Shown here one piece after another: positions 5,274-16,416 of a DNA stretch of 64,000 nt. The position numbers were made by a program, and so were the translations under genes. The stretch lies in assembly GCA_947593515.1 (NCBI GenBank), contig CANQDQ010000004.1:1-64000 (forward strand). The letters run 5' to 3'. The stretch is from an uncultured Bacteroidales bacterium. GTDB lineage: Bacteria; Bacteroidota; Bacteroidia; Bacteroidales; UBA11471. How positions within the stretch are numbered: position 1 is the stretch's first letter; each line of letters opens with the position of its first letter. A model generated the notes under the pieces. That model had not been told where the DNA came from, did not search any database, and was given only the letters and a program-made list of their open reading frames with translations.

Positions 5274-8200
5274 TTAAAGATTGATCGTCAAACCGATGGT
5301 CCATTTACGCGAAAGGGGGTAAGCCGCACCGTTGTCGATGCCGGTGTAGACGCTCACCACTTCCGGATCCAGTCCCGAGTAGTTGCTCAACGTGAAAAGA
5401 TTCTCGCCCGTTACGAACACGCGCACTCCCGAAAGCCGGATCTTGCGTGTGATACGCTGTGGCAGCGAGTAGCCCAGTGTCAGCTGCTTGAGTTTGCAGT
5501 AATGCACCTTTTCCAGATTCGACGAGAACAGCCCTGTATACTGAATGGACGCATAAGGATAGAAACCGTATGCCGGATACAAAGGGTTGTCGCCCTCCTG
5601 CTGCCAGAAATCGTTCGGACTTATATGCGAAAAGATCGGGCGCGACGTATGGTCTTCGCCTTGAACGGTCTGGTATCGGAATGCATTGACCATGTTCTGC
5701 CCCAACGTGAAGGAGAGGAAAAAAGTCAGATCGAAACCCTTCCAACGCAGTTCGTGAGACCAGCCGCCGTAAATGGTCGGTAAAGCGCTACCCGCGTAGT
5801 AGCGGTCGTCCTCGTTGATTTGCCCGTCGCCGTTCAGGTCGGCGATCTTACGCATACCCGGCTTGAACGAATAGGCGTCGTCGCCGTCGGGAGAGAGCAG
5901 GTGTTTCTTACCCTCCTCGTCGTAATAGAACGGAACGTCGTCCTCATTCTGGATAAATCCCTCGTCCTTATAGAGCCAGATGCCGCTCAACGGCTTGCCG
6001 ATGACCATTTCGGCGGCGATGTCCGTCCCCGAATAACTTTTTCGGAAACGGTTCCAGTTTCGGGAGATGTTCAAGCGTGTACGCCAGGAGAAATTCTTCT
6101 TACGGATGATGTCTGCCTTGATCTCGACTTCCACTCCGTCGTTGGAAACCGCCATGGCATTTCGCCACTGGAAATTGGCTTCGCCGTACATATCGCCCCG
6201 CATGGGAACTCTGTAAATCAGTGATTTGGTGTATTTGTGATACCAATCGACGCTTAACGAAAAACGGCGGTTGAACATGTCCATATCTAATCCCACGTCA
6301 TACTGATCGGCCTGCTCCCAGCGCAGTTTGCGGTTTACAACCCCCGAGGGGCGCATTCCCTGCACCCCATCGAACTTGTAGCCCGGTTCCATCAAACCTT
6401 GAGCCAGATAGGGAATCTCGAACTGGCTGCCGGTCTGTCCCCAGCTGGCGCGCACCTTGCCGAAATCGAGCCACCATGCCCATTTCATGAATTTCTCCTC
6501 GGAGAAAGCCCACCCGACGGCCACCGAAGGGAAAGTCGCCCAGCGGACTTCCGGACCGAAAACCGATGAACCGTCGCAACGCACCGTGGCTTCCAACAGA
6601 TACTTTTCATTGTAATTATAGGCGATGCGGCCGAAGTAGCTGGTCATGGCTGTCTCCGTGAAATTGGACTGGTAGTGCATCATCGCACGGTAATAGTCCG
6701 ACACGGGATCGTAGACCATCTCGGGAAAGGCACTCGTTACATAATATACATTGTCGCTCGGCCCGCCGGAGCCGGAGCCGCTGATCGTCCAAATCTTGTT
6801 GGCATCGAACGAAATTCCGGCCAGCAGGTCGAAATTGTGCTTCTTCACCGAGAAGTTGTAGTTGATTAAATTCTCGTTGGAGAGAAGAATATCCCGCTCG
6901 ACGGTGCCCGTCGATTTACTCTCTTTGTATGTCGGGTCGAGATAGCTTGGCCGGAAAAAATTTTGATTCACTTGATTGAAATCCATCGACGCCGAAGTCG
7001 AAACCGTCAGTCCGGAGATGATCTCCCACGAGAGCACCATGCTCTCCCGCAGCCGGTAGGAGGTGTTATCTTCCGACTGTCCGTTGAGCATTTGGAGAAC
7101 TTTCTCTTCGACCGAACCGCCGCTGGAATAGAGCGAAGACTGATATCGAGGATCGACAGTCACAGACTCGAAAGCTCCGCCGGCACCGCCGCCTTGACCA
7201 CGGCTGCGATCCGTATAGGCGAGATAGGTGCGGTTGTCGAGTGTCAGGTTTTTGACCGGTTTCACCGAAAGATTGACAATGACGTTCCCGCGGAGGAAAT
7301 CGCTGCCCGGCATGATGCCCCTCTCCTTGTAGATGCCGCCGCCTACCAGATAGTTCATCGTCGCGTTGCCGCCGCTGGCTTGAATATTGGCATTGACGAC
7401 TTGCCCCATGCGGAACATGTATTTGTACCAGTTCGTCGAATTGTTATAAAACGTGTTGAGCGAGTCCTGCACTAACGGCAGCGCCGACATTCCCTGTCCG
7501 CGGTTCCAGAACAGATCGAAATCCACGCCGTTGAGGGCCGCCTCTTCGTAGGAGGTCGGGTATTTGTAGGTTCCTGATGATTTGTCGTAATAGGCGCCGC
7601 TGGTTGCCATGGCCATCTGTATATAGTGCATGCGCTCCATGCGTCCGCCCAGCTGGGCGGGCGCCTCCGGAAGTTCGGCAATCGAGTAGGATACGTTGGC
7701 CGAAAACGAAGCATGCCCCTCGCGCCCCTTTTTCGTCGTGATAAGAATCACGCCGTTTGCGGCACGTGAACCGTAGATCGCCGCCGAAGCGGCGTCCTTG
7801 CATACCTCCACCGACTCGATTGTCGAAGGGTCTATCTCGGCAATGGTGTTGGTTCCGGTTACGGGCGAAGTGAACGAATGTACGGGAACGCCGTCGATTA
7901 CGTAAAGCGGCGCTCCGGAACTCTTGTATCCGGCCTCGTCATCGAGCAGCGAGTTGTAGCCGCGAATGGTCATGGAGGTCGAGCCGCTTCCCGGCGCGCC
8001 CGACTGCTGTATGACGCCGAGGCCGGCCACACGCCCTTGAAGCATGATGTCGAGGCTCGGAGCCGAAACGTCCTGTAAATCTTCGGCTTTCACGGAGGAA
8101 ATGGCCCCGACGACCTTACGCTTCGAGCGCACGCCGTAACCGATTACGGTTACCTCGTCGATGAAGGCGTCTTCTTCTAACTCTACCACGACCTCCGTGC

Positions 8201-8522
8201 CCGCATGAAATTTCTGGCTTTTGGATTTGTACCCCACGAAACTGACTTTCAAGGTTCCCGAATCGACCGGCGAAACGATCGAAAAATACCCTTGCGCATC
8301 GGCATTGGTTCCCACCGTTTTGCCGTCGGCATCGATGATGATGGTAGCTCCGGGCATATTCGCCCCTTTGGAATCGAGCACTTTCCCCGTCACCTTGAAG
8401 GTGTTGGCATTCTCGGTCTTTACCCGTTGAGCGGCGCCCGGATACACTCCTGCCGCCAACAGCAGGACACATATCCAGAAACGTATTTGCCGGACGGCGT
8501 TTTGTGGAGAATTCATTTGCAT
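5274..8522 (-). CDS. SusC/RagA-family TonB-linked outer-membrane transporter
   Basis: 1082 residues, normal length for SusC. Order of parts: signal peptide to about residue 32, a carboxypeptidase-regulatory-like beta-sandwich (about 40-125, TGKVLDSKGANMPGATI), the TonB box region (IDEVTVIGYGVRSKRKVVGA), the plug domain with the SusC signature (LYVIDGVPV, VCKDAASAAIYGSRAANG) and a 22-stranded barrel ending SRKWTIGLTINL. It imports the ligand held by the partner SusD lid, driven by TonB. An alternative start at 8516 is possible. A 200-nt leader with a -7 box at 8729-8736 precedes it, and a promoter inside the invertible segment at 9.23 kb currently points toward it. Confidence 0.95.
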   Translation of the reverse strand: MQMNSPQNAVRQIRFWICVLLLAAGVYPGAAQRVKTENANTFKVTGKVLDSKGANMPGATIIIDADGKTVGTNADAQGYFSIVSPVDSGTLKVSFVGYKSKSQKFHAGTEVVVELEEDAFIDEVTVIGYGVRSKRKVVGAISSVKAEDLQDVSAPSLDIMLQGRVAGLGVIQQSGAPGSGSTSMTIRGYNSLLDDEAGYKSSGAPLYVIDGVPVHSFTSPVTGTNTIAEIDPSTIESVEVCKDAASAAIYGSRAANGVILITTKKGREGHASFSANVSYSIAELPEAPAQLGGRMERMHYIQMAMATSGAYYDKSSGTYKYPTSYEEAALNGVDFDLFWNRGQGMSALPLVQDSLNTFYNNSTNWYKYMFRMGQVVNANIQASGGNATMNYLVGGGIYKERGIMPGSDFLRGNVIVNLSVKPVKNLTLDNRTYLAYTDRSRGQGGGAGGAFESVTVDPRYQSSLYSSGGSVEEKVLQMLNGQSEDNTSYRLRESMVLSWEIISGLTVSTSASMDFNQVNQNFFRPSYLDPTYKESKSTGTVERDILLSNENLINYNFSVKKHNFDLLAGISFDANKIWTISGSGSGGPSDNVYYVTSAFPEMVYDPVSDYYRAMMHYQSNFTETAMTSYFGRIAYNYNEKYLLEATVRCDGSSVFGPEVRWATFPSVAVGWAFSEEKFMKWAWWLDFGKVRASWGQTGSQFEIPYLAQGLMEPGYKFDGVQGMRPSGVVNRKLRWEQADQYDVGLDMDMFNRRFSLSVDWYHKYTKSLIYRVPMRGDMYGEANFQWRNAMAVSNDGVEVEIKADIIRKKNFSWRTRLNISRNWNRFRKSYSGTDIAAEMVIGKPLSGIWLYKDEGFIQNEDDVPFYYDEEGKKHLLSPDGDDAYSFKPGMRKIADLNGDGQINEDDRYYAGSALPTIYGGWSHELRWKGFDLTFFLSFTLGQNMVNAFRYQTVQGEDHTSRPIFSHISPNDFWQQEGDNPLYPAYGFYPYASIQYTGLFSSNLEKVHYCKLKQLTLGYSLPQRITRKIRLSGVRVFVTGENLFTLSNYSGLDPEVVSVYTGIDNGAAYPLSRKWTIGLTINL

Positions 8523-8689
8523 ATCTATCTGCGTAGAACCGTTTTACGGAATATCAGCACACTATCAAACGGCCAACCCCTTCGTTATGGGCGAAAACAA
8601 CCGGTACACTTTTCGTACTCCCTGAATGCAGATTCGAATATCCCGCTAATAATCGTTTAATATTGTTCACGCTTGTAAATCCTCTTAAT

Positions 8690-8712
8690 TTTACTCAAAA
8701 TAAACGAGTAAA
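8690..8712. repeat. Inverted repeat TTTACTC/GAGTAAA in the susC leader
   Basis: TTTACTC (8690-8696) and GAGTAAA (8706-8712) form a 7-bp inverted repeat. It lies about 20 bp downstream of the likely -7 box of the first SusC operon. The motif TTTACTCAAA is shared with the tandem array at 17671-17769. It could be an operator or an mRNA hairpin. Confidence 0.4.
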
Positions 8713-8728
8713 TTTGAAAGATATCGTG

Positions 8729-8736
8729 CAAATGTA
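8729..8736 (-). promoter_or_regulatory. Putative -7 box of the SusC/SusD operon
   Basis: The minus strand reads TACATTTG, a full match to the Bacteroidetes -7 consensus TAnnTTTG. No TTG is found at the usual 19-20 bp distance (the nearest TTTG is 14 bp away), so the promoter may need an activator or may be spurious. Confidence 0.4.
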
Positions 8737-9190
8737 TAAATTAAGTTTGACAAACACGTTAGCCGAATGGGAATTTCATGTTTTTTAACAGAAAAAATGT
8801 GTATGCCGGACAAGCAAAACCCATTACCGGATTTGGGCAACAGCGCAGTGTTTATTTCCGATGTCAGCTGTGAAAATAATTTGTTACTCTATTGTTACTT
8901 AATTCATTAAAATATAGAAGCACTTATTAATCTCCATAAACAATAAAATATTTTTGGTCACATGACCGGTTTTCTACTACAAAGGTATGTTTTTTATTTT
9001 GTTCTTTGTTGCGACCGTCGAACGGAGTGGGGGGGGGAAGCCTGTTATACGCGAAACGATTTACAATTTCGGAGAAATAAAAGGCAAAATACCCACGTGC
9101 AACCTGTAAGGGCTTATCCGCCCATGTCGGAAACTTGTTGATAGACAATGCAAATAGGAGGGAAGGGCGGGAAATCTTGGTGCCGCGGCG
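8737..9190. other. Intergenic region without a supported gene
   Basis: I see no convincing coding region here. It holds a run of nine G (9029-9037) and AT-rich sequence. A minus-strand frame covering 8927-9253 begins inside the invertible segment and resembles no known protein; I do not call it. Confidence 0.5.
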
Positions 9191-9221
9191 TTGTGTTGTC
9201 TCTCTGTAAGAATGAATACAA
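9191..9221 (+). repeat. Left arm of the 31-bp inverted repeat (IRL)
   Basis: Together with 9500-9530 this is an inverted repeat: 23 bp are identical (9199-9221 against 9500-9522) and 31 bp match with two mismatches. Each arm is itself flanked by short inverted ends (TTGTGTTG ... GAATACAA here), with a 15-bp middle, as in core sites of tyrosine recombinases. See the invertible element entry. Confidence 0.85.
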
Positions 9222-9229
9222 ACGACGCA

Positions 9230-9260
9230 CAAAAGTATAATAATAAAATTCACCCATCAA
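9230..9260 (-). promoter_or_regulatory. Promoter inside the invertible segment, pointing left
   Basis: The minus strand reads TTG (9258-9260), a 20-bp spacer, then TACTTTTG (9230-9237), matching the -33/-7 layout of Bacteroidetes promoters. The start point would be near 9223, at the inner edge of the left inverted repeat. Confidence 0.75.
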
Positions 9261-9297
9261 GCAAAATAAGATAAAAATTCTTAAAATTACCCCCCCC

Positions 9298-9326
9298 GTG
9301 TCTATAAATCATTGATTTATAGACAC
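9298..9326. repeat. 29-bp palindrome inside the invertible segment
   Basis: GTGTCTATAAATCA, one unpaired T, then TGATTTATAGACAC: perfect 14-bp arms, preceded directly by a run of eight C (9290-9297). It could be a regulator or recombinase-accessory binding site, or a strong mRNA hairpin that changes strand on inversion. It has no U-tract. Confidence 0.6.
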
Positions 9327-9347
9327 TTGTATTATTCGTATATAAAA

Positions 9348-9367
9348 GGAATAACCGGTGTTATTCC
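9348..9367. repeat. 20-bp palindrome inside the invertible segment
   Basis: GGAATAAC-CGGT-GTTATTCC, perfect 8-bp arms, 21 bp from the larger palindrome. A protein-binding site is plausible. Confidence 0.5.
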
Positions 9368-9499
9368 CCGTCCGGCACGTTTCATTTCATTCGGTTTCAT
9401 ACTCTGCAACAGGGCGTTTGTTGTACATAATGTCACAAAAATCGAGCAAATCGATGGTTTGCACTGACGTATTGTAAAGCAAATCAATTTGTTACGACG

Positions 9500-9530
9500 T
9501 TGTATTCATTCTTACAGAGAGAGAATACAA
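9500..9530 (-). repeat. Right arm of the 31-bp inverted repeat (IRR)
   Basis: Inverted copy of 9191-9221. Its ends are TTGTATTC (9500-9507) and GAATACAA (9523-9530), an exact 8-bp inverted pair around a 15-bp middle, a layout typical of a tyrosine-recombinase core site. Confidence 0.85.
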
Positions 9531-9607
9531 ACTCATGCGATAAGGAGGTCTTGGATTCGCATAACAAGATTGAGTTGAGAAAAACAGTGGGAAAGATAAA
9601 ACAGTAT

Positions 9608-10942
9608 ATGAAAATAGACAAATGGATATTGCTTCTGTTTTTGCTCTGTGGGTGTTATGCCGGCTACGGGCAGGAGCATATATTCGCCGATACGTTGGGT
9701 TTACAGGTGCATTTCCGATACGGCTACTCGATTTTCGAGCCCGAGTTGAACGAAAACGGCGCCCGTCTCGACCGATTCATCGGCCGGCTGTGGGAGTTGC
9801 AGGCCGACACGACCTGCCGCATCGAGCGCCTGACGTTCGTGGGGGCCGCCTCGCCCGAAGGCAATACGGCGATGAACCGCCGCCTCTCCGCACGGCGTGC
9901 GGAGAATATCCTCGCCCATATCCGCACGCAGATCGAGCTGCCCGACTCGTTGGTAAGCGTCGTTTCGCTCGGCATCGACTGGGAGGGCCTGACCGCGCAG
10001 GTCGAGGCCTCGCAGATGCCCTACCGCGACGAGGTGCTGGATATTCTGTACCACACGCCCGAGTGGATACTCCGCGACGGCAAGATAGTCGATGGCCGCA
10101 AGCGCCGGTTGGAGATGCTGTGCGGCGGACAGGCGTGGTGGTATATGTGCGAGCAGTTTTTCCCGAAATTAAGAAGTTCCGATGTACGAGTCGTCTGCCG
10201 GGTCGTGCAGCGCACCGAGCCGCTTGTCCGCTTAGAGGGGAGCGATACCCTCGCGCTCACACCCCGGGAGCCGGTCGTGCCCGTGCCCGTTCCCCGCGAG
10301 ATGCCCGCGCTCAGCGAGATGCCCGCGCTCAGCGATACGGTTCGCCCGTCCGGAGTGGCGCTTCCGCCACAAAAGCCATTCTATATGTCGTTGAAGACCA
10401 ATATGCTCTACGACCTGCTGCTCGTGCCGAACATCGGAGCGGAGTTTTACGTTGGGCGCGGGTGGACAGTCGGCGGCACATGGGCGTATGCATGGTGGAG
10501 CCGAGAAAAGAGCCATTTCTACTGGCGCCTGTACGGCGGCGAGCTCTATGTCCGCAAATATTTCGGGCGCCTTGCAGCGGAAAAGCCGCTTACGGGGCAC
10601 CATCTCGGTGTTCACGGCGAGATATTCACCTACGATTTCGAGTTGGGCGGCCGCGGCTATATCGGCGGCAAACCGGGCGGAAACCTGTGGAACAAAATGA
10701 ATTACGCCGTGGGCGTGGAGTACGGCTATTCGCTGCCGATAACGCGCCGGTTGAACCTCGATTTCACCTTAGGCATCGGCTATTGGGGCGGGGAATACAA
10801 AATATACGACCCCGAAGACGGCCATTATGTCTGGAAAGAAACCCGACAGCGCCACTGGATCGGCCCCACGAAAGTGGAAATTTCGCTCGTATGGCTGCTC
10901 GGCCGCGGGAACTTCAACGAGAAGAAAGGGGGTAAGCGATGA
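9608..10942 (+). CDS. OmpA-like/DUF3575 fimbria-associated outer-membrane protein
   Basis: 444 residues from the ATG at 9608, where the signal peptide MKIDKWILLLFLL begins; upstream in-frame codons run back into the inverted repeat and are not needed. Residues about 30-150 have an OmpA-type pattern (FVGAASPEGNTAMNRRLSARRAENI) that in this family contacts peptidoglycan. A Pro-rich linker follows, with an exact 18-bp tandem duplication at 10298-10333 encoding EMPALS twice. Residues about 255-440 are a DUF3575 beta-barrel-like domain (KTNMLYDLLLVPNIGAEFYV). Genes of this type head Mfa-like fimbrial operons in Bacteroidales and are thought to anchor or assemble fimbriae. The next gene overlaps by 4 bp (ATGA). 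Expression should depend on the invertible promoter just upstream. Confidence 0.8.
   Translation: MKIDKWILLLFLLCGCYAGYGQEHIFADTLGLQVHFRYGYSIFEPELNENGARLDRFIGRLWELQADTTCRIERLTFVGAASPEGNTAMNRRLSARRAENILAHIRTQIELPDSLVSVVSLGIDWEGLTAQVEASQMPYRDEVLDILYHTPEWILRDGKIVDGRKRRLEMLCGGQAWWYMCEQFFPKLRSSDVRVVCRVVQRTEPLVRLEGSDTLALTPREPVVPVPVPREMPALSEMPALSDTVRPSGVALPPQKPFYMSLKTNMLYDLLLVPNIGAEFYVGRGWTVGGTWAYAWWSREKSHFYWRLYGGELYVRKYFGRLAAEKPLTGHHLGVHGEIFTYDFELGGRGYIGGKPGGNLWNKMNYAVGVEYGYSLPITRRLNLDFTLGIGYWGGEYKIYDPEDGHYVWKETRQRHWIGPTKVEISLVWLLGRGNFNEKKGGKR
10298..10333 (+). repeat. 18-bp tandem duplication in the linker
   Basis: The unit GAGATGCCCGCGCTCAGC occurs twice head to tail and encodes EMPALS-EMPALS in the Pro-rich linker. 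Copy number could change by slippage without breaking the frame. Confidence 0.8.
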
Positions 10943-11874
10943 AAAAAACGTATCTCTCTCTCTCGGTTATGCTTGCCCTCGTTTCGTGCGAACATAAGGA
11001 GTTGTGCTACGACCATCTGCATTCGCTGCTGCATTTGCAAGTCGTTTTCGATTGGACGCAAGCTCCGGAAGCCTCTCCGGCATCGATGTCCCTCTATTTG
11101 TTTCCGGCGGACGGCGGCAAGTCGATTCGCAATGAATTCACCGACCCTGCCGGCGGTGACGTACGCACGACAGAAGGCCGTTACGATGCCTTGTGCCTGA
11201 ACAGCGATGCCGAAGGCATCAGATACCGCAATACGGAAAAATGGGAAACGTTCGAAATCACGACGGTCTCTACATCGATGCTGCCGGAGTTCTCTTCGCT
11301 GGGGCTCCGTTCCGACGATGCGCCGAGGGCGCTGGGGGCGGAAAACGAGCGGGTCGCTGCGCCACCCCGAATGGTCTGGAGCGACTGCCGGACGGGTGTC
11401 GATGTGTCGGCCGAGGAGCACCGGCTCACGCTCTCGCCCTCGGCGGCGGTGGGCCGCTGCACGGTGGAAATCCGCCATGCCGAGAACCTCGCTCATGTTC
11501 AGGAATTGAGCGCCTCGCTTTCGGGCATGGCGGGCGGTTTCCTTGTCGGGGCCGGCAAGGCCTCGGCCGAGCGGGTAACGATTCCTTTCGAAATGTCGAA
11601 AAGCGATGCGACCACCCTTACGGGTTCGTTGCAGACCTTCGGCCATTGCCCCGCCGGGCACACCGCGCATACCCTCATCGTCTATGCCCTGCTGGCCGAC
11701 GGCAGAAAATGGTATTACACCTATGACGTAACGGAGCAAATCCATACCGCCCCCGATCAGCACGACATTCGTATTCTGCTCGACGGGCTGCCGCTGCCGG
11801 AGGCGGCGGGCTCCGGCGGATTCCGGCCTACGGTGGAGAGTTGGCGTGACGTGTATATAGATATAGAAATGTAA
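10939..11874 (+). CDS. DUF5119 fimbrial-operon lipoprotein
   Basis: 311 residues; lipobox LALVSC with Cys17, followed by EHKE. The N-terminal pattern CYDHLHSLLHLQVVFDW ... MSLYLFPADGG is that of DUF5119 proteins, which resemble the Mfa2/FimB fimbrial anchor family and sit in fimbrillin operons. The likely role is anchoring or capping the fimbria at the outer membrane. It overlaps the OmpA/DUF3575 gene by 4 bp, so translation is coupled. The fimbrillin gene follows after 62 bp. Confidence 0.75.
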   Translation: MKKTYLSLSVMLALVSCEHKELCYDHLHSLLHLQVVFDWTQAPEASPASMSLYLFPADGGKSIRNEFTDPAGGDVRTTEGRYDALCLNSDAEGIRYRNTEKWETFEITTVSTSMLPEFSSLGLRSDDAPRALGAENERVAAPPRMVWSDCRTGVDVSAEEHRLTLSPSAAVGRCTVEIRHAENLAHVQELSASLSGMAGGFLVGAGKASAERVTIPFEMSKSDATTLTGSLQTFGHCPAGHTAHTLIVYALLADGRKWYYTYDVTEQIHTAPDQHDIRILLDGLPLPEAAGSGGFRPTVESWRDVYIDIEM

Positions 11875-11936
11875 TTCGCTTTTGTGAAAAGAAATAACAA
11901 TTATTCATCTATTTATTCATTACAAAATTATGTATT

Positions 11937-13025
11937 ATGAAAAAGACATTATTTTTACTCGCAGCAGCGGCGATAAGCACCGCCTGCTCGATGGACGAAA
12001 CGACCGAGGTCGTCGCCGAAGGTTTGCCGATCGCCTTCCGTACCGCAGTGGCAACGCGGAGCGCGCAGATATTCAACGCTCCGAGTGATCTCTCGCAATT
12101 CAAGGCTGTGGCGTTCTATCCTGATGGAAATAATTTTTTCAACGAAGAGCCCTTCACTGTGTCGGATGACGATGGTGGTTCCTATACTGCCACGACCTCG
12201 TACTACTGGCCGACGGACGGCAGTGAGCTGACTTTCTATGCCTATGCTCCTACAGACCTCAACGGCGGTACAGTGAATGCTACGCGCGAAAGCACAACGA
12301 TTGAGTATACGCCAGCTTCTGATATTAGTAAGCAAAGTGATTTCATTACGGCTATGAACACGGGCTCCATAAAAAATCAGGAGACGGGGGTGGATCTGTC
12401 GTTCAAACACGCGTTGTCGCAGATCGATGTCCAAGCCTACTACGTGGACGAGGACGGGGGAGACTCCTATACATATAAAATCGATAGCGTTAAAATCGTG
12501 AATGTCGACGGCACTGCAACATACACATTCGCAACAACATCAGAGGGAGAGGGAGTATGGACGGAAGGAGAGACTTCTGACGCCCCAACTACCACCTATA
12601 AGGTGGATAATAACATAAATATGCCCGCCTCCTCGCCCGAAACGATCTTGAGTGGTGGAACGTGGATGCTTATTCCCCAGTCGCAATCGGCATGGGTGGG
12701 CGATGCAACGAACAGTGGAACGTATTTGGCTGTAAAGATTCAAATTACGGACAAAGGTGGTGCCCTCAAATATCCTCGGGGAGAAGATATCACCGCCGAC
12801 AGTGGCGATGACGCTTACGGTTGGACAGCTGTAGGAATCGCTCCAAACTGGGAACAGGGCAACAAATACATCTATCAGCTGAAATTTACGGACACCAATG
12901 CCGGCATAATTCCTCCCGGAGAGCCCGGCGAGGGAGAGCCCGTTCTGGGTGGGCCGATCGTGTTCAATGTTGTTTCGGTCGAAGGCTGGATCGACAACAC
13001 CGAACTCGACGTAGAAATGGAGTAG
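11937..13025 (+). CDS. Fimbrillin-family (Mfa1-like) subunit
   Basis: 362-residue lipoprotein precursor; lipobox ISTAC (Cys17). The conserved fimbrillin pattern is clear: ADGLPIAF-type strand near residue 28, KAVAFYPDG, SYYWPTDGSELTFYAYAP, SDFITAMN, LSFKHALSQIDVQA, and a C-terminal FNVVSVEGWIDNT strand. Family knowledge: the precursor is lipidated, exported, cut after an arginine by an Arg-specific protease, and polymerises by strand exchange. Arg41 in VATRS is a candidate cut site. The middle of the gene is visibly less GC-rich than its flanks, as expected for a diversifying surface antigen. Probably the major shaft subunit. Confidence 0.85.
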   Translation: MKKTLFLLAAAAISTACSMDETTEVVAEGLPIAFRTAVATRSAQIFNAPSDLSQFKAVAFYPDGNNFFNEEPFTVSDDDGGSYTATTSYYWPTDGSELTFYAYAPTDLNGGTVNATRESTTIEYTPASDISKQSDFITAMNTGSIKNQETGVDLSFKHALSQIDVQAYYVDEDGGDSYTYKIDSVKIVNVDGTATYTFATTSEGEGVWTEGETSDAPTTTYKVDNNINMPASSPETILSGGTWMLIPQSQSAWVGDATNSGTYLAVKIQITDKGGALKYPRGEDITADSGDDAYGWTAVGIAPNWEQGNKYIYQLKFTDTNAGIIPPGEPGEGEPVLGGPIVFNVVSVEGWIDNTELDVEME

Positions 13026-13065
13026 TAAACGCCGCTCCGAGGGGCGTCGATTCCTCGGAAAATTT

Positions 13066-13097
13066 ACCCGCGGCGGGTTGAATGTCCCGCCGCGGGT
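13066..13097 (+). promoter_or_regulatory. Strong GC-rich hairpin between the two fimbrillin genes
   Basis: ACCCGCGGCGGG (13066-13077) and CCCGCCGCGGGT (13086-13097) make a 12-bp stem with an 8-nt loop and no U-tract. It probably stabilises the upstream fimbrillin message or lowers read-through to the second subunit, setting their ratio. Confidence 0.55.
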
Positions 13098-13120
13098 GCA
13101 AAGTTAAAAATACGTGAACG

Positions 13121-14278
13121 ATGAAAAAGAAGAACCTGTTTCGCAAAATATACCGGCTCGGAGCGTGGTGTGCGCTTTCCGGCATGTCGGTGTTGGCCGC
13201 TTGCACCGACGAGGCGGCGACCGGACTGCCGGCGGAGGGCGCGGCGATACGTTTCGATGTCGGATTGTCCGAAACGTGGGAATCGGGCGGCTCCGCGCCG
13301 GCAGCAGCGCCGGCGGCGGAACGCCCCGACACGCTCGCGGCGCGCGGCGCGGAAATCCCGATACACTCGCAGAGCACGGCTTCGAACATAACCGTTACGG
13401 TCATCGACGGTCTTCCTCCGCGTACCAAGTTCGCCGGTCCGCAGACGCGGGGAGCACAAAAGGACACGAGTACGTCTTTAAGTGACTACTGCGGCGATCC
13501 GGAAACGTTCGGGATGTTAGCTTATGTTTTAGATAACAGCAGTGAGAATTGGGTGCCATATATAAGTAACACCAAAATGAGCATTGACGGGTCGCTCGCC
13601 GACGGGGGCTATGTCTACTGGCCCGGAACATGGCGGGACTGCTCCATACGTTTCTACGCCTATGCGCCCTATTCCGACGCCGACAATGAAAATAGCGACG
13701 GAACAAAAAGAGGAATAGGAATCCCCTATACGAATCCTTCGAACGCCAACGAACAAATAGATTTTCTCGTGGCCGCCACCGAAGCCTACGAGAGTGGCAA
13801 CTACCCTGAGGCGGTGCCGCTCATATTCAAGCACGCGCTTACGGCGGTGGCATTCAAATTCTCCTTCACAGACCTATACCAAACGGATTATCCGACTCAG
13901 ATTACCGGAATCACGATCAAAAGCGTGGGCATGGCTGGCACATATTCTGTCGCGTCTGGTGAATCGGAAGGGAAGTGGGCGATTTCAGAGCGAGGGGAGG
14001 CTACACTGACCATCAGCGACGACAACCAAAAGTGCAGCTATGTTGATGATCTGAAGTACTGTCAATGGCCACTAAAATTTGATGATCCTCCCGTCGATTA
14101 TTTCTTAATGATACCCCAGTCGATGAACGGTATATCTCTCACGGTGTTTTATATAAACGAATCCGGCGGCCAATCCCGTTATAATGTCTTATATCCTTAT
14201 AAGGAGTTGGAGTGGAAGCCCGGCACAACCGTTGTCTACAACGCAAGCATTAATCCGGATGTAATTGAGAATTGGTAA
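13121..14278 (+). CDS. Fimbrillin-family minor subunit (second)
   Basis: 385-residue lipoprotein precursor; lipobox VLAAC (Cys28). It shares the fimbrillin signature with the gene before it: YVYWPGTWRDCSIRFYAYAP, EQIDFLVAAT, PLIFKHALTAVAFKFSF, and a final WKPGTTVVYNASINPDVI strand. A longer, Ala-rich N-terminal segment (residues about 60-85) separates the lipid anchor from the domain, and PQTRGAQK offers an arginine for processing. Being downstream of the likely shaft gene and behind a strong hairpin, it is probably a less abundant tip or accessory subunit; that is inference. Confidence 0.82.
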   Translation: MKKKNLFRKIYRLGAWCALSGMSVLAACTDEAATGLPAEGAAIRFDVGLSETWESGGSAPAAAPAAERPDTLAARGAEIPIHSQSTASNITVTVIDGLPPRTKFAGPQTRGAQKDTSTSLSDYCGDPETFGMLAYVLDNSSENWVPYISNTKMSIDGSLADGGYVYWPGTWRDCSIRFYAYAPYSDADNENSDGTKRGIGIPYTNPSNANEQIDFLVAATEAYESGNYPEAVPLIFKHALTAVAFKFSFTDLYQTDYPTQITGITIKSVGMAGTYSVASGESEGKWAISERGEATLTISDDNQKCSYVDDLKYCQWPLKFDDPPVDYFLMIPQSMNGISLTVFYINESGGQSRYNVLYPYKELEWKPGTTVVYNASINPDVIENW

Positions 14279-14353
14279 CTTTCCTCTGTGATACGTTGTG
14301 CCGTGTTATGCTGTGCCTATTTGTTCCCCGCCGCGCTATGCTGCACCGTCCGT

Positions 14354-14455
14354 GTTATGTCGGCACCCGAGCGTGAGCAGCATCGTGGCGAAGGTCTGCC
14401 GGCCGGTGTGGAAGTTCACGTTCTTGAAACAGATGGCGATATCTGCCACTCTCAT
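14354..14455 (-). pseudogene. Relic of a tyrosine recombinase (integrase) C-terminal domain
   Basis: The minus strand encodes MRVADIAICFKNVNF followed by HTGRQTFATMLLTLG, which matches the catalytic H-x-x-R box of Bacteroides-type phage integrases (usual form HxxRHTFATxxLTLG). The sequence then diverges and the rest of the domain, including the catalytic tyrosine, is missing. Nothing upstream of residue 1 remains because the ATPase gene ends at 14458. It is a small, dead fragment. Its place directly after a fimbrial operon with an invertible promoter suggests a lost recombinase from this locus or a former mobile element. Confidence 0.65.
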
Positions 14456-14457
14456 AC

Positions 14458-15888
14458 TCACGAATTAAAAAGATCGTCCATCGTTACCTCGCTGTGAACG
14501 ATGCTGTGGCTTTTAACATTGGCAACGCCGTATGTGGTTATAAATGTGTGAACCAACGTCTTGTTCGTCTTGGTCATCTCTTTGAACAGACTTGACCGCT
14601 CTCGTAACTGACGCTCGTATTCAGGTTTGATGCGGTATGCACCAACACTGAATTTCATTTCGCAGAGATGGATAATGCGGTCGGCGCGTTCGATAATCAT
14701 ATCTATCTGCCCGCCGGAAATTCCTTCTTCCTTGTTTGGTTTGAGTTGCCACGAGGATAATGATGTGGCAATACCTCTTATTCCCAATGCGGATTTAATC
14801 TGTTTGTGATGCCTCATGCAGACAAGTTCAAAGCTGCTGCCCATCCAATCGAATACACGACCTGAGTCGCGATGGTTGCTCCACCACTCCTCGTCATGCG
14901 AAAGATTATCGGCAAGGAACCGAAAATAAAACAGCGAAAAGAAATCGGTAAGTCTGTAAACCGCTCCGCGACGCTTGTTGCCATATTGCAGCCACTTCTC
15001 AATCATATCAGACCGTTCAAGATTGTTGATGACCTTGGTGATATTGCTGCTTTTCAGGGGTAGTGATTTGATTATATCACCTCTCGTCAGTCCGGATTCA
15101 TGTTCGCTGAGCAGTTGAACGACGGCAGTGTACAAATCGGCATTATCGAAAAGAGCATGATACAATTCGTCAAACTCCAATTTTAGAAGTGCGCCGTCAT
15201 TAAAGAAAAGCCGGTCGATATTTTGCGTGAAACTCAATTCAGAGTCAAGGAGGCTGTAATAAAATGGAACACCGCCAAGTACCATATATGTTTGGGTTAA
15301 TTGATAGCGGTCCCATTCTATGCCTTTGGTGGCAAGATATCGCTCTGTTTCATTCAATGTAAACGGAGCCAGATGCAGATTACAGGTTATTCGGGCATGC
15401 AGACCGCCTTTGTTGGCGACAATCTTGTCTTTCATCCACGATGTAGCCGAACCGGTAGCGATAAGCATAATGTTCCGCTGCGACATAGCCCAACCGTTCC
15501 AGAAGTTTTCAAGGGCAGATACAAAGATTGACCTCCCGGAATCCATCCAAGGCATTTCATCTATAAAAACAATTCTTTTGCGATCGGCAGGCAAAGTAGA
15601 CAAATACTCTTCAAGGGCATAGAACGCTTCGTCCCAATTGTGCAGATTGCCGAACTGCTTTGTCGAATATCCGTTAAGTACTCTCAAAAAGTTGTTCAAC
15701 TGCCGTCGGGTGGTCATGCCGTGCGCGCCGACATATTTGAAATCGAACTGTTGATTGAAGAATTCTTCGATCAGGAATGTTTTTCCGATACGTCGTCTGC
15801 CGTGAACGATAACCAATTCCGACCTGTCCGAGTTCAGACATCGCTCTAATTCCGCATATTCTTTGTCGCGTCCGATAAGTTTGCTCAT
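14458..15888 (-). CDS. AAA+ ATPase with DUF234-type nuclease-like C-terminus
   Basis: 476 residues. Walker A is GRRRIGKT (residues 30-37) and Walker B is IVFIDE (106-111), followed by the archaeal-ATPase sensor region LIATGSATSWM. A winged-helix segment (residues about 255-310, SGLTRGDIIKSLPLKSSNITKVINNLE) precedes a C-terminal DUF234-like domain in which QIDMIIERADRIIHLCEMKF carries the D...ExK spacing of PD-(D/E)xK nucleases. The family is widespread in Bacteroidetes and archaea, and its cellular role is unsettled. Four alternating copies of a ~21-bp repeat lie upstream at 15943-16082. Confidence 0.85.
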   Translation of the reverse strand: MSKLIGRDKEYAELERCLNSDRSELVIVHGRRRIGKTFLIEEFFNQQFDFKYVGAHGMTTRRQLNNFLRVLNGYSTKQFGNLHNWDEAFYALEEYLSTLPADRKRIVFIDEMPWMDSGRSIFVSALENFWNGWAMSQRNIMLIATGSATSWMKDKIVANKGGLHARITCNLHLAPFTLNETERYLATKGIEWDRYQLTQTYMVLGGVPFYYSLLDSELSFTQNIDRLFFNDGALLKLEFDELYHALFDNADLYTAVVQLLSEHESGLTRGDIIKSLPLKSSNITKVINNLERSDMIEKWLQYGNKRRGAVYRLTDFFSLFYFRFLADNLSHDEEWWSNHRDSGRVFDWMGSSFELVCMRHHKQIKSALGIRGIATSLSSWQLKPNKEEGISGGQIDMIIERADRIIHLCEMKFSVGAYRIKPEYERQLRERSSLFKEMTKTNKTLVHTFITTYGVANVKSHSIVHSEVTMDDLFNS

Positions 15889-15942
15889 ATCTCATGATTT
15901 TGACGCAAAAATAATCATTTGCAATTGAACAGTCAAAAATAA

Positions 15943-16082
15943 AAACCACAAAACTGTATTTATCTATGATTTTTTATGACATAAATACAGTTCTGTGGTT
16001 CGCAAAATAGTGCTGCCATAACTCAAAACCACAAAACTGTATTTATCTCCGATAAAATGGCAGATAAGTTCAGATTTGTGGT
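15943..16082. repeat. Four copies of a ~21-bp repeat in alternating orientation
   Basis: Core ACCACAAAACTGTATTTAT. Copies: forward 15943-15965, reverse 15981-16000 (one mismatch), forward 16025-16048 (identical to the first over 23 bp), reverse 16062-16082 (three mismatches). They form two inverted pairs with 13-15-bp spacers and occupy the region directly upstream of the ATPase gene that starts at 15888. Operator sites for a dimeric regulator, or target sites of the neighbouring ATPase-nuclease, are possible. Confidence 0.8.
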
Positions 16083-16102
16083 CAAGCGTACTTCCGGAGT
16101 CT

Positions 16103-16243
16103 TTACTGCGTTACGAAGACTCTCCAACTTCCATCTTTTTCTCCGCGCTCTACATACTTCTTGGAAATCAGTTGATCCACCAGTTTCTGTATAGCTGTCA
16201 TACTGATGCCGGTTTCCTTTTTCATGTCTGCAAGCGTCAATAT
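16103..16243 (-). pseudogene. Relic of a winged-helix protein C-terminus
   Basis: The minus strand reads ILTLADMKKETGISMTA, then QKLVDQLISKKYVERGEK and GSWRVFVTQ before a stop at 16103. This is a typical winged-helix tail as found at the end of Bacteroidetes AlbA-type ATP-binding regulators. The frame has no suitable start and is closed by a stop a few codons further upstream, so only a fragment remains. Confidence 0.5.
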
Positions 16244-16252
16244 ACAAAAAAC

Positions 16253-16289
16253 ATTCGAAAAGGTTGTACTTACACAATCTTTTTCGAAT
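16253..16289. repeat. Imperfect inverted repeat
   Basis: ATTCGAAAAGGTTGT (16253-16267) faces ACAATCTTTTTCGAAT (16274-16289); arms pair with one mismatch and one bulge. It spans the 3' end of the small minus-strand frame ending at 16270 and may be a hairpin or protein site. Confidence 0.45.
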
Positions 16290-16416
16290 CATTTTCAAAA
16301 GAAAAATAAGTTTCAAACGTCGTTGAATCTATAAATAGCAACGTACGAGCGTCTTCGGGACTGATGTCGAGCAATCGCACAATGCGGTTCCGGCCGGTGC
16401 CGCGACAGGTCGGCAT
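16270..16416 (-). CDS. Possible 48-residue hypothetical protein or gene fragment
   Basis: A minus-strand frame starts with ATG at 16416, 12 bp after the DUF4143 ATPase stop: MPTCRGTGRNRIVRLLDIS, then PEDARTLLFIDSTTFETYF. The composition is protein-like, but I do not recognise it. With the neighbouring winged-helix relic it may be what is left of one decayed gene. Confidence 0.35.
   Translation of the reverse strand: MPTCRGTGRNRIVRLLDISPEDARTLLFIDSTTFETYFSFENDSKKIV

Follow-up and report, generated by a model that had tools for sequence, protein, structure and literature searches.

Invertible promoters described in Bacteroidales

The fimS element of E. coli, with FimB and FimE, is an invertible promoter of roughly 300 bp for fimbriae. 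The locus considered here would work alike; its fimbriae, repeats, and promoter type are unrelated to those of E. coli, and the comparison is an analogy only. Invertible fimbrial promoters are also well known in gut Bacteroidales, and the unusual detail of the present case is the orphan state of the switch.

In Bacteroides fragilis, Tsr19 (BF2766) inverts both a local and a distant promoter, IVp-I and IVp-II, respectively, the latter lying far from its recombinase; the ON state of IVp-I amounted to about 1% in one culture (PMC4747536). The likeness to our locus consists in a tyrosine recombinase acting on small promoter segments that precede surface loci and are bounded by short inverted repeats, and in a local promoter that is mostly OFF in culture (PMC4747536). 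In contrast to the Tsr19 system, the promoter in our case stands before a DUF3575/Mfa-like fimbrial operon and no longer has a local recombinase gene, and its segment and arms belong to another sequence family. Another locus of B. fragilis, an outer-surface/fimbrial one under a Tsr recombinase, is likewise phase variable by DNA inversion and encodes a protein that matches a fimbrial subunit, according to a review (PMC12632263, citing Weinacht et al., 2004).

Bacteroidales inverton groups resemble our locus in that invertible promoters are over-represented ahead of fimbrillin genes and have site-specific integrases in their vicinity; those invertons were called from sequencing data of defined strains, whereas the organism studied here belongs to an uncultured rabbit-gut lineage (PMC11892184). 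Finally, promoters on Bacteroidales integrative elements share with it a segment directly downstream of an invertase gene, the Bacteroidales promoter consensus (-33 TTTG / -7 TANNTTTGY), and a large majority of OFF states, predominantly ON switches being observed in only 4 out of 96 cases (PMC8748976). These switches control resistance genes, whereas ours is fimbrial and has no invertase gene.

We analyzed a stretch of 64,000 nucleotides (the window) from an uncultured Bacteroidales bacterium. Taking all evidence into account, we consider it likely that the segment delimited by the inverted repeat at 9191-9530 is an orphan invertible promoter, a phase-variation switch of the type served by Bacteroidales tyrosine recombinases, which is mostly OFF and flipped in trans. 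Comparison of related sequences establishes the architecture, the recombinase family, the loss of the local gene, and the matched changes in the arms; from these we infer that inversion may still be going on in the window organism, driven by the recombinase encoded at C11:27126-28325 or by a close homologue. This would extend recombinase-controlled fimbrial phase variation to an uncultured rabbit-gut genus of Bacteroidales, and would provide a natural case of a switch lacking its local recombinase yet apparently kept, making the cross-talk of dispersed tyrosine recombinases and orphan switches testable. The genus of the window organism is represented here by seven genomes, the named relatives being Bacteroidales MAGs with "Lapin" isolate names, which suggest the rabbit gut as their source.

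The segment, its promoter, and the fimbrial operon

The left arm (9191-9221, plus strand) and the right arm (9500-9530, minus strand) are 31 nt each and pair at 29 out of 31 positions (94% complementary), with a 23-bp perfect core. Both this repeat and its perfect part had been reported by an earlier, sequence-only reading of the same DNA and are confirmed here, while the enclosed region, given there as about 280 bp, measures 278 bp (9222-9499, no strand). The pair is the best inverted repeat of its kind in the window, and its ungapped score of 25 lies far above the scores of randomized sequence, which peaked at 14 when the whole window was dinucleotide-shuffled 20 times and at 15 when the local 1.2 kb was shuffled 1000 times. 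Even with 3 mismatches allowed, the 23-mer of the arm occurs in the 2.26-Mb genome only in the two arms themselves. A search with a relaxed arm pattern yielded a single further arm-like site, where contig C11 ends, next to an N-truncated recombinase. The window thus contains a small intergenic segment between short inverted repeats.

The two arms differ in their internal structure. The right one has perfect 8-bp inverted ends, TTGTATTC...GAATACAA, and, judged by eye, probably a 12-7-12 layout, TTGTATTCATTC-TTACAGA-GAGAGAATACAA. The outer end of the left arm, TTGTGTTG, matches at 6/8 positions only, and hence the 8-bp inverted ends claimed earlier for each arm hold for the right arm but not for the left one. 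The left arm also holds the stop codon TAA (9207-9209) of a remnant recombinase gene.

A Bacteroides-type promoter, CTTG-N20-TACTTTTG, lies on the minus strand 8 bp from the left arm, in agreement with the earlier description of a TTG element and a 20-bp spacer beside one arm. Its -33 element CTTG occupies 9258-9261 (read as 9261-9258) and is separated by the 20-bp spacer from the -7 box TACTTTTG at 9230-9237 (read as 9237-9230). Apart from the initial base of the -33 element, it fits the published consensus (PMC8748976), the -7 element being perfect, and the DNA of the box, CACAAAAGTA, is invariant in three related loci (L016, L017, L018). The promoter is directed leftward, away from the four-gene fimbrial operon, and this orientation, together with the comparative evidence, supports the earlier assignment of the fimbriae as OFF in the sequenced state.

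From the segment up to the ATG of the first fimbrial gene (9608), no other consensus promoter was found. One weaker match, a degenerate second promoter-like box beside the right arm (TTTG-N22-TCAATTTG, 9484-9491, plus strand), is absent from L017 and L018; for this reason we did not count it among working promoters, and it probably is non-functional. A scan of the window for E. coli-type sigma-70 promoters was uninformative and was set aside as well.

Inside the segment, a C8 tract (9290-9297, plus strand), which every related segment has as C8-C9, is followed by a hairpin at 9298-9326 (plus strand), which has a 13-14 bp stem, a folding energy of -16.2 kcal/mol (z -6.3), and a T-rich run after it, TTGTATTATT. 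In the present orientation it resembles a rightward terminator; it is weaker in L017 and L018. Outside the segment, a G9 tract at 9029-9037 corresponds to G6 in L016 and G9 in L017, and both this and the C8 tract are possible slippage sites.

The operon to the right of the segment, described as fimbrial in the sequence-only reading, is intact and has the domains expected of a Bacteroidota (type V) fimbrial operon. It consists, on the plus strand, of genes for a DUF3575 outer-membrane protein (9608-10942), a DUF5119 protein, probably a fimbrial anchor/assembly lipoprotein (10939-11874), and two fimbrillin-like proteins (Mfa_like_1; 11937-13025 and 13121-14278), i.e., two fimbrillin-fold subunits with anchor/assembly genes. 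A candidate upstream start of the first gene (TTG near AAGGAGG at 9542) was ruled out by an in-frame stop there in L017. The dN/dS values of 0.17-0.20 for DUF3575 and 0.32-0.40 for DUF5119 indicate that purifying selection acts on both assembly genes. Upstream of the paralogous DUF3575 loci in G000:C11 and G006:C17, inverted repeats were sought and none were found.

Related switches and their recombinases

Among close relatives, the switch recurs in L016 (genome G005) with 97% identity and unchanged orientation, and the L017 (G006) segment is 80% identical to that of the window. A more distant segment, about 70% identical and with the same operon behind it, is found in L018, from a rabbit-gut MAG labelled Phocaeicola; its arms match each other at 30 out of 33 positions, and their sequence is unlike that of the window arms. 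Every member of the close group, five segments in total (window, L016, L017, L018, L015), is oriented OFF, which is compatible with either a biased or a frozen switch and fits the published mostly-OFF switches (PMC8748976; PMC4747536).

An adjacent tyrosine recombinase gene, usual although not obligatory at such switches, is present in two related loci. In L018, a recombinase frame enters the left arm and stops within it, and in G005:C60 an intact 400-aa recombinase terminates in a near-identical arm with a similar promoter behind it. In the window such a gene is lacking: there is no intact one adjoining the switch or anywhere on contig C4, only a decayed 3' remnant at about 9114-9209 (plus strand; 76% identity to the intact G005:C60 gene, E 3e-23, with indels). 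Judging by this remnant, the cognate gene beside the switch is deleted in the lineage of the window. As the remnant and the same non-recombinase DNA to the left of it are common to L016 and L017, the loss predates the split of these cassettes, this timing argument concerning cassettes, not species.

The recombinase gene in both L018 and L015 reaches its stop codon within its own recombination site, the left arm, and the promoter in the OFF orientation runs antisense into this gene, which may provide feedback on switching.

Elsewhere in the window genome, an intact recombinase of the cognate clade is encoded at G000:C11:27126-28325. This protein of 400 aa keeps R242, K268, R342, H365, and Y374, and is 81% identical to the arm-adjacent G005 enzyme. 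No inverted-repeat pair was found beside its gene, and hence its site preference is only presumed. Homologous recombinases are intact in G005, and the G006 copy is cut off by the contig end.

The arm-adjacent recombinase has the domains Arm-DNA-bind_5, Phage_int_SAM_5, and Phage_integrase, and matches to this recombinase at E <= 1e-60 were obtained in 42 of 393 genomes searched in the order. At about a dozen of the loci read, a segment of 134-367 bp close to the recombinase gene is bordered by an inverted repeat of 15-29 bp (imperfect in some cases), and a TAnnTTTG box near one arm is present in most such segments. Both orientations are seen in the sister loci L085 and L090 from one genus, where one segment occurs in opposite orientations, with minus-strand BLAST matches at both ends; their recombinases pair with 100/100 support in the tree, which leaves out L102. 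As comparative evidence, this speaks for the inversion of such promoters by recombinases of this family. Along with L018 and G005:C60, it supports the design proposed in the sequence-only reading, an invertible promoter of the tyrosine-recombinase type.

In L088 and L078, the same combination of recombinase and inverted-repeat segment apparently precedes probable DNA-methylase/restriction genes, as judged by eye from the gene start.

Proposed switching in trans and alternative explanations

The recombinase would exchange strands in the short core of the arms and thereby flip the 278-bp segment. In the sequenced state the promoter would fire leftward, leaving the fimbriae OFF, and the hairpin at 9298-9326 may insulate the operon by blocking stray rightward transcription. 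After the flip, the TACTTTTG box would occupy 9484-9491 on the plus strand, with the hairpin upstream of the promoter, and transcription would start close to the right arm, giving a leader of roughly 110 nt by arithmetic from the predicted start site and turning the fimbriae ON. With the local gene deleted, fimbrial phase variation would depend on a recombinase in trans, either the one from C11 or a close homologue; such action is plausible, given the Tsr19 precedent (PMC4747536).

That the switch is active is argued by arms that are beyond chance and unique in the genome, by the L018 and G005:C60 recombinases ending in an arm beside a like segment or promoter, by the recurrent association of recombinase and inverted repeats together with the opposite orientations of L085 and L090, and by the comparison with L017, taken with the intact C11 recombinase and the selected assembly genes. 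In this comparison, two positions differ between the window and L017 among the 18 bp comparable in both arms, and within each genome the arms agree (CATTCTTACAG vs. CACTCTTACGG). The chance of two identical matched changes at about 20% segment divergence is, by a rough estimate, 1% or less, which points to recombination between the arms continuing after the loss of the local enzyme. The phase variability of the fimbriae proposed in the sequence-only reading is therefore likely, given these changes and the intact homologue, with the amendment that, the adjacent recombinase being gone, it needs action in trans.

Several observations count against an active switch: the lack of a recombinase on contig C4, the OFF state in 5/5 segments, the loss of half of the right arm in L017, and the absence of own repeats beside the C11 gene. 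The reduction of the local gene to a remnant, the OFF state of every close relative, and the truncated L017 arm would all be expected of a frozen relic, in which the promoter became locked OFF once the adjacent recombinase was lost and the arms are decaying. We find this rather unlikely, as the window and L016 retain the 23-bp perfect core, both arms changed in step after the recombinase loss, and homologous recombinases are intact in the window genome and in G005 (the G006 one ends at the contig end). Moreover, a long-silent operon is expected to decay, yet this one is intact, with dN/dS of 0.17-0.40 in its assembly genes, arguing against silence since the loss of the local recombinase. The single orientation in the five close segments could also mean that the segment does not invert at all and that the inverted repeat serves as a structural element or a binding site for a regulator; this is highly improbable, given that the association of arms and recombinase recurs across the order, that one segment is seen in both orientations in the sister genomes of L085 and L090, and that the arms coevolve.

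Compatible with the orphan invertible promoter is an either/or switch that would drive the fimbrial operon in one orientation and contribute transcription of the left-hand SusC/SusD operon in the other, to which we assign a modest minority chance. At present the promoter faces the SusC/RagA-family TonB receptor gene (5274-8522, minus strand, start at 8522), which is also the neighbour in L016 and L017, with no convincing minus-strand terminator between the promoter and susC; on the other hand, the distance is about 700 bp, and in L018 and L015 the recombinase gene occupies the same side, so that the susC arrangement is likely secondary. Quite doubtful is the combined scenario, in which the switch outlived its own recombinase, was taken over by a dispersed paralogue that acts in trans, and now selects between fimbriae and a SusC/SusD uptake operon.

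Divergence along the locus is uneven. The two fimbrillins (11937-14278) are 53-55% identical in protein sequence to those of L016, vs. 97% for the neighboring genes, and the synonymous divergence rises from about 0.06-0.08 in the neighbors to 0.4-0.7 in the fimbrillins, a pattern suggesting that the pilin genes underwent allelic replacement. The cassette of switch and operon (about 8650-14300) is 83% identical to that of L017, the left flank being 95% and the right flank (14397-16319) 98% identical; since the cassette is more diverged than both flanks, it may have moved between lineages. Further to the right, a cluster of inverted repeats of the ACCACAAAACTGTATTTAT type (15944-16082) lies immediately upstream of a minus-strand AAA ATPase gene starting at 15888.
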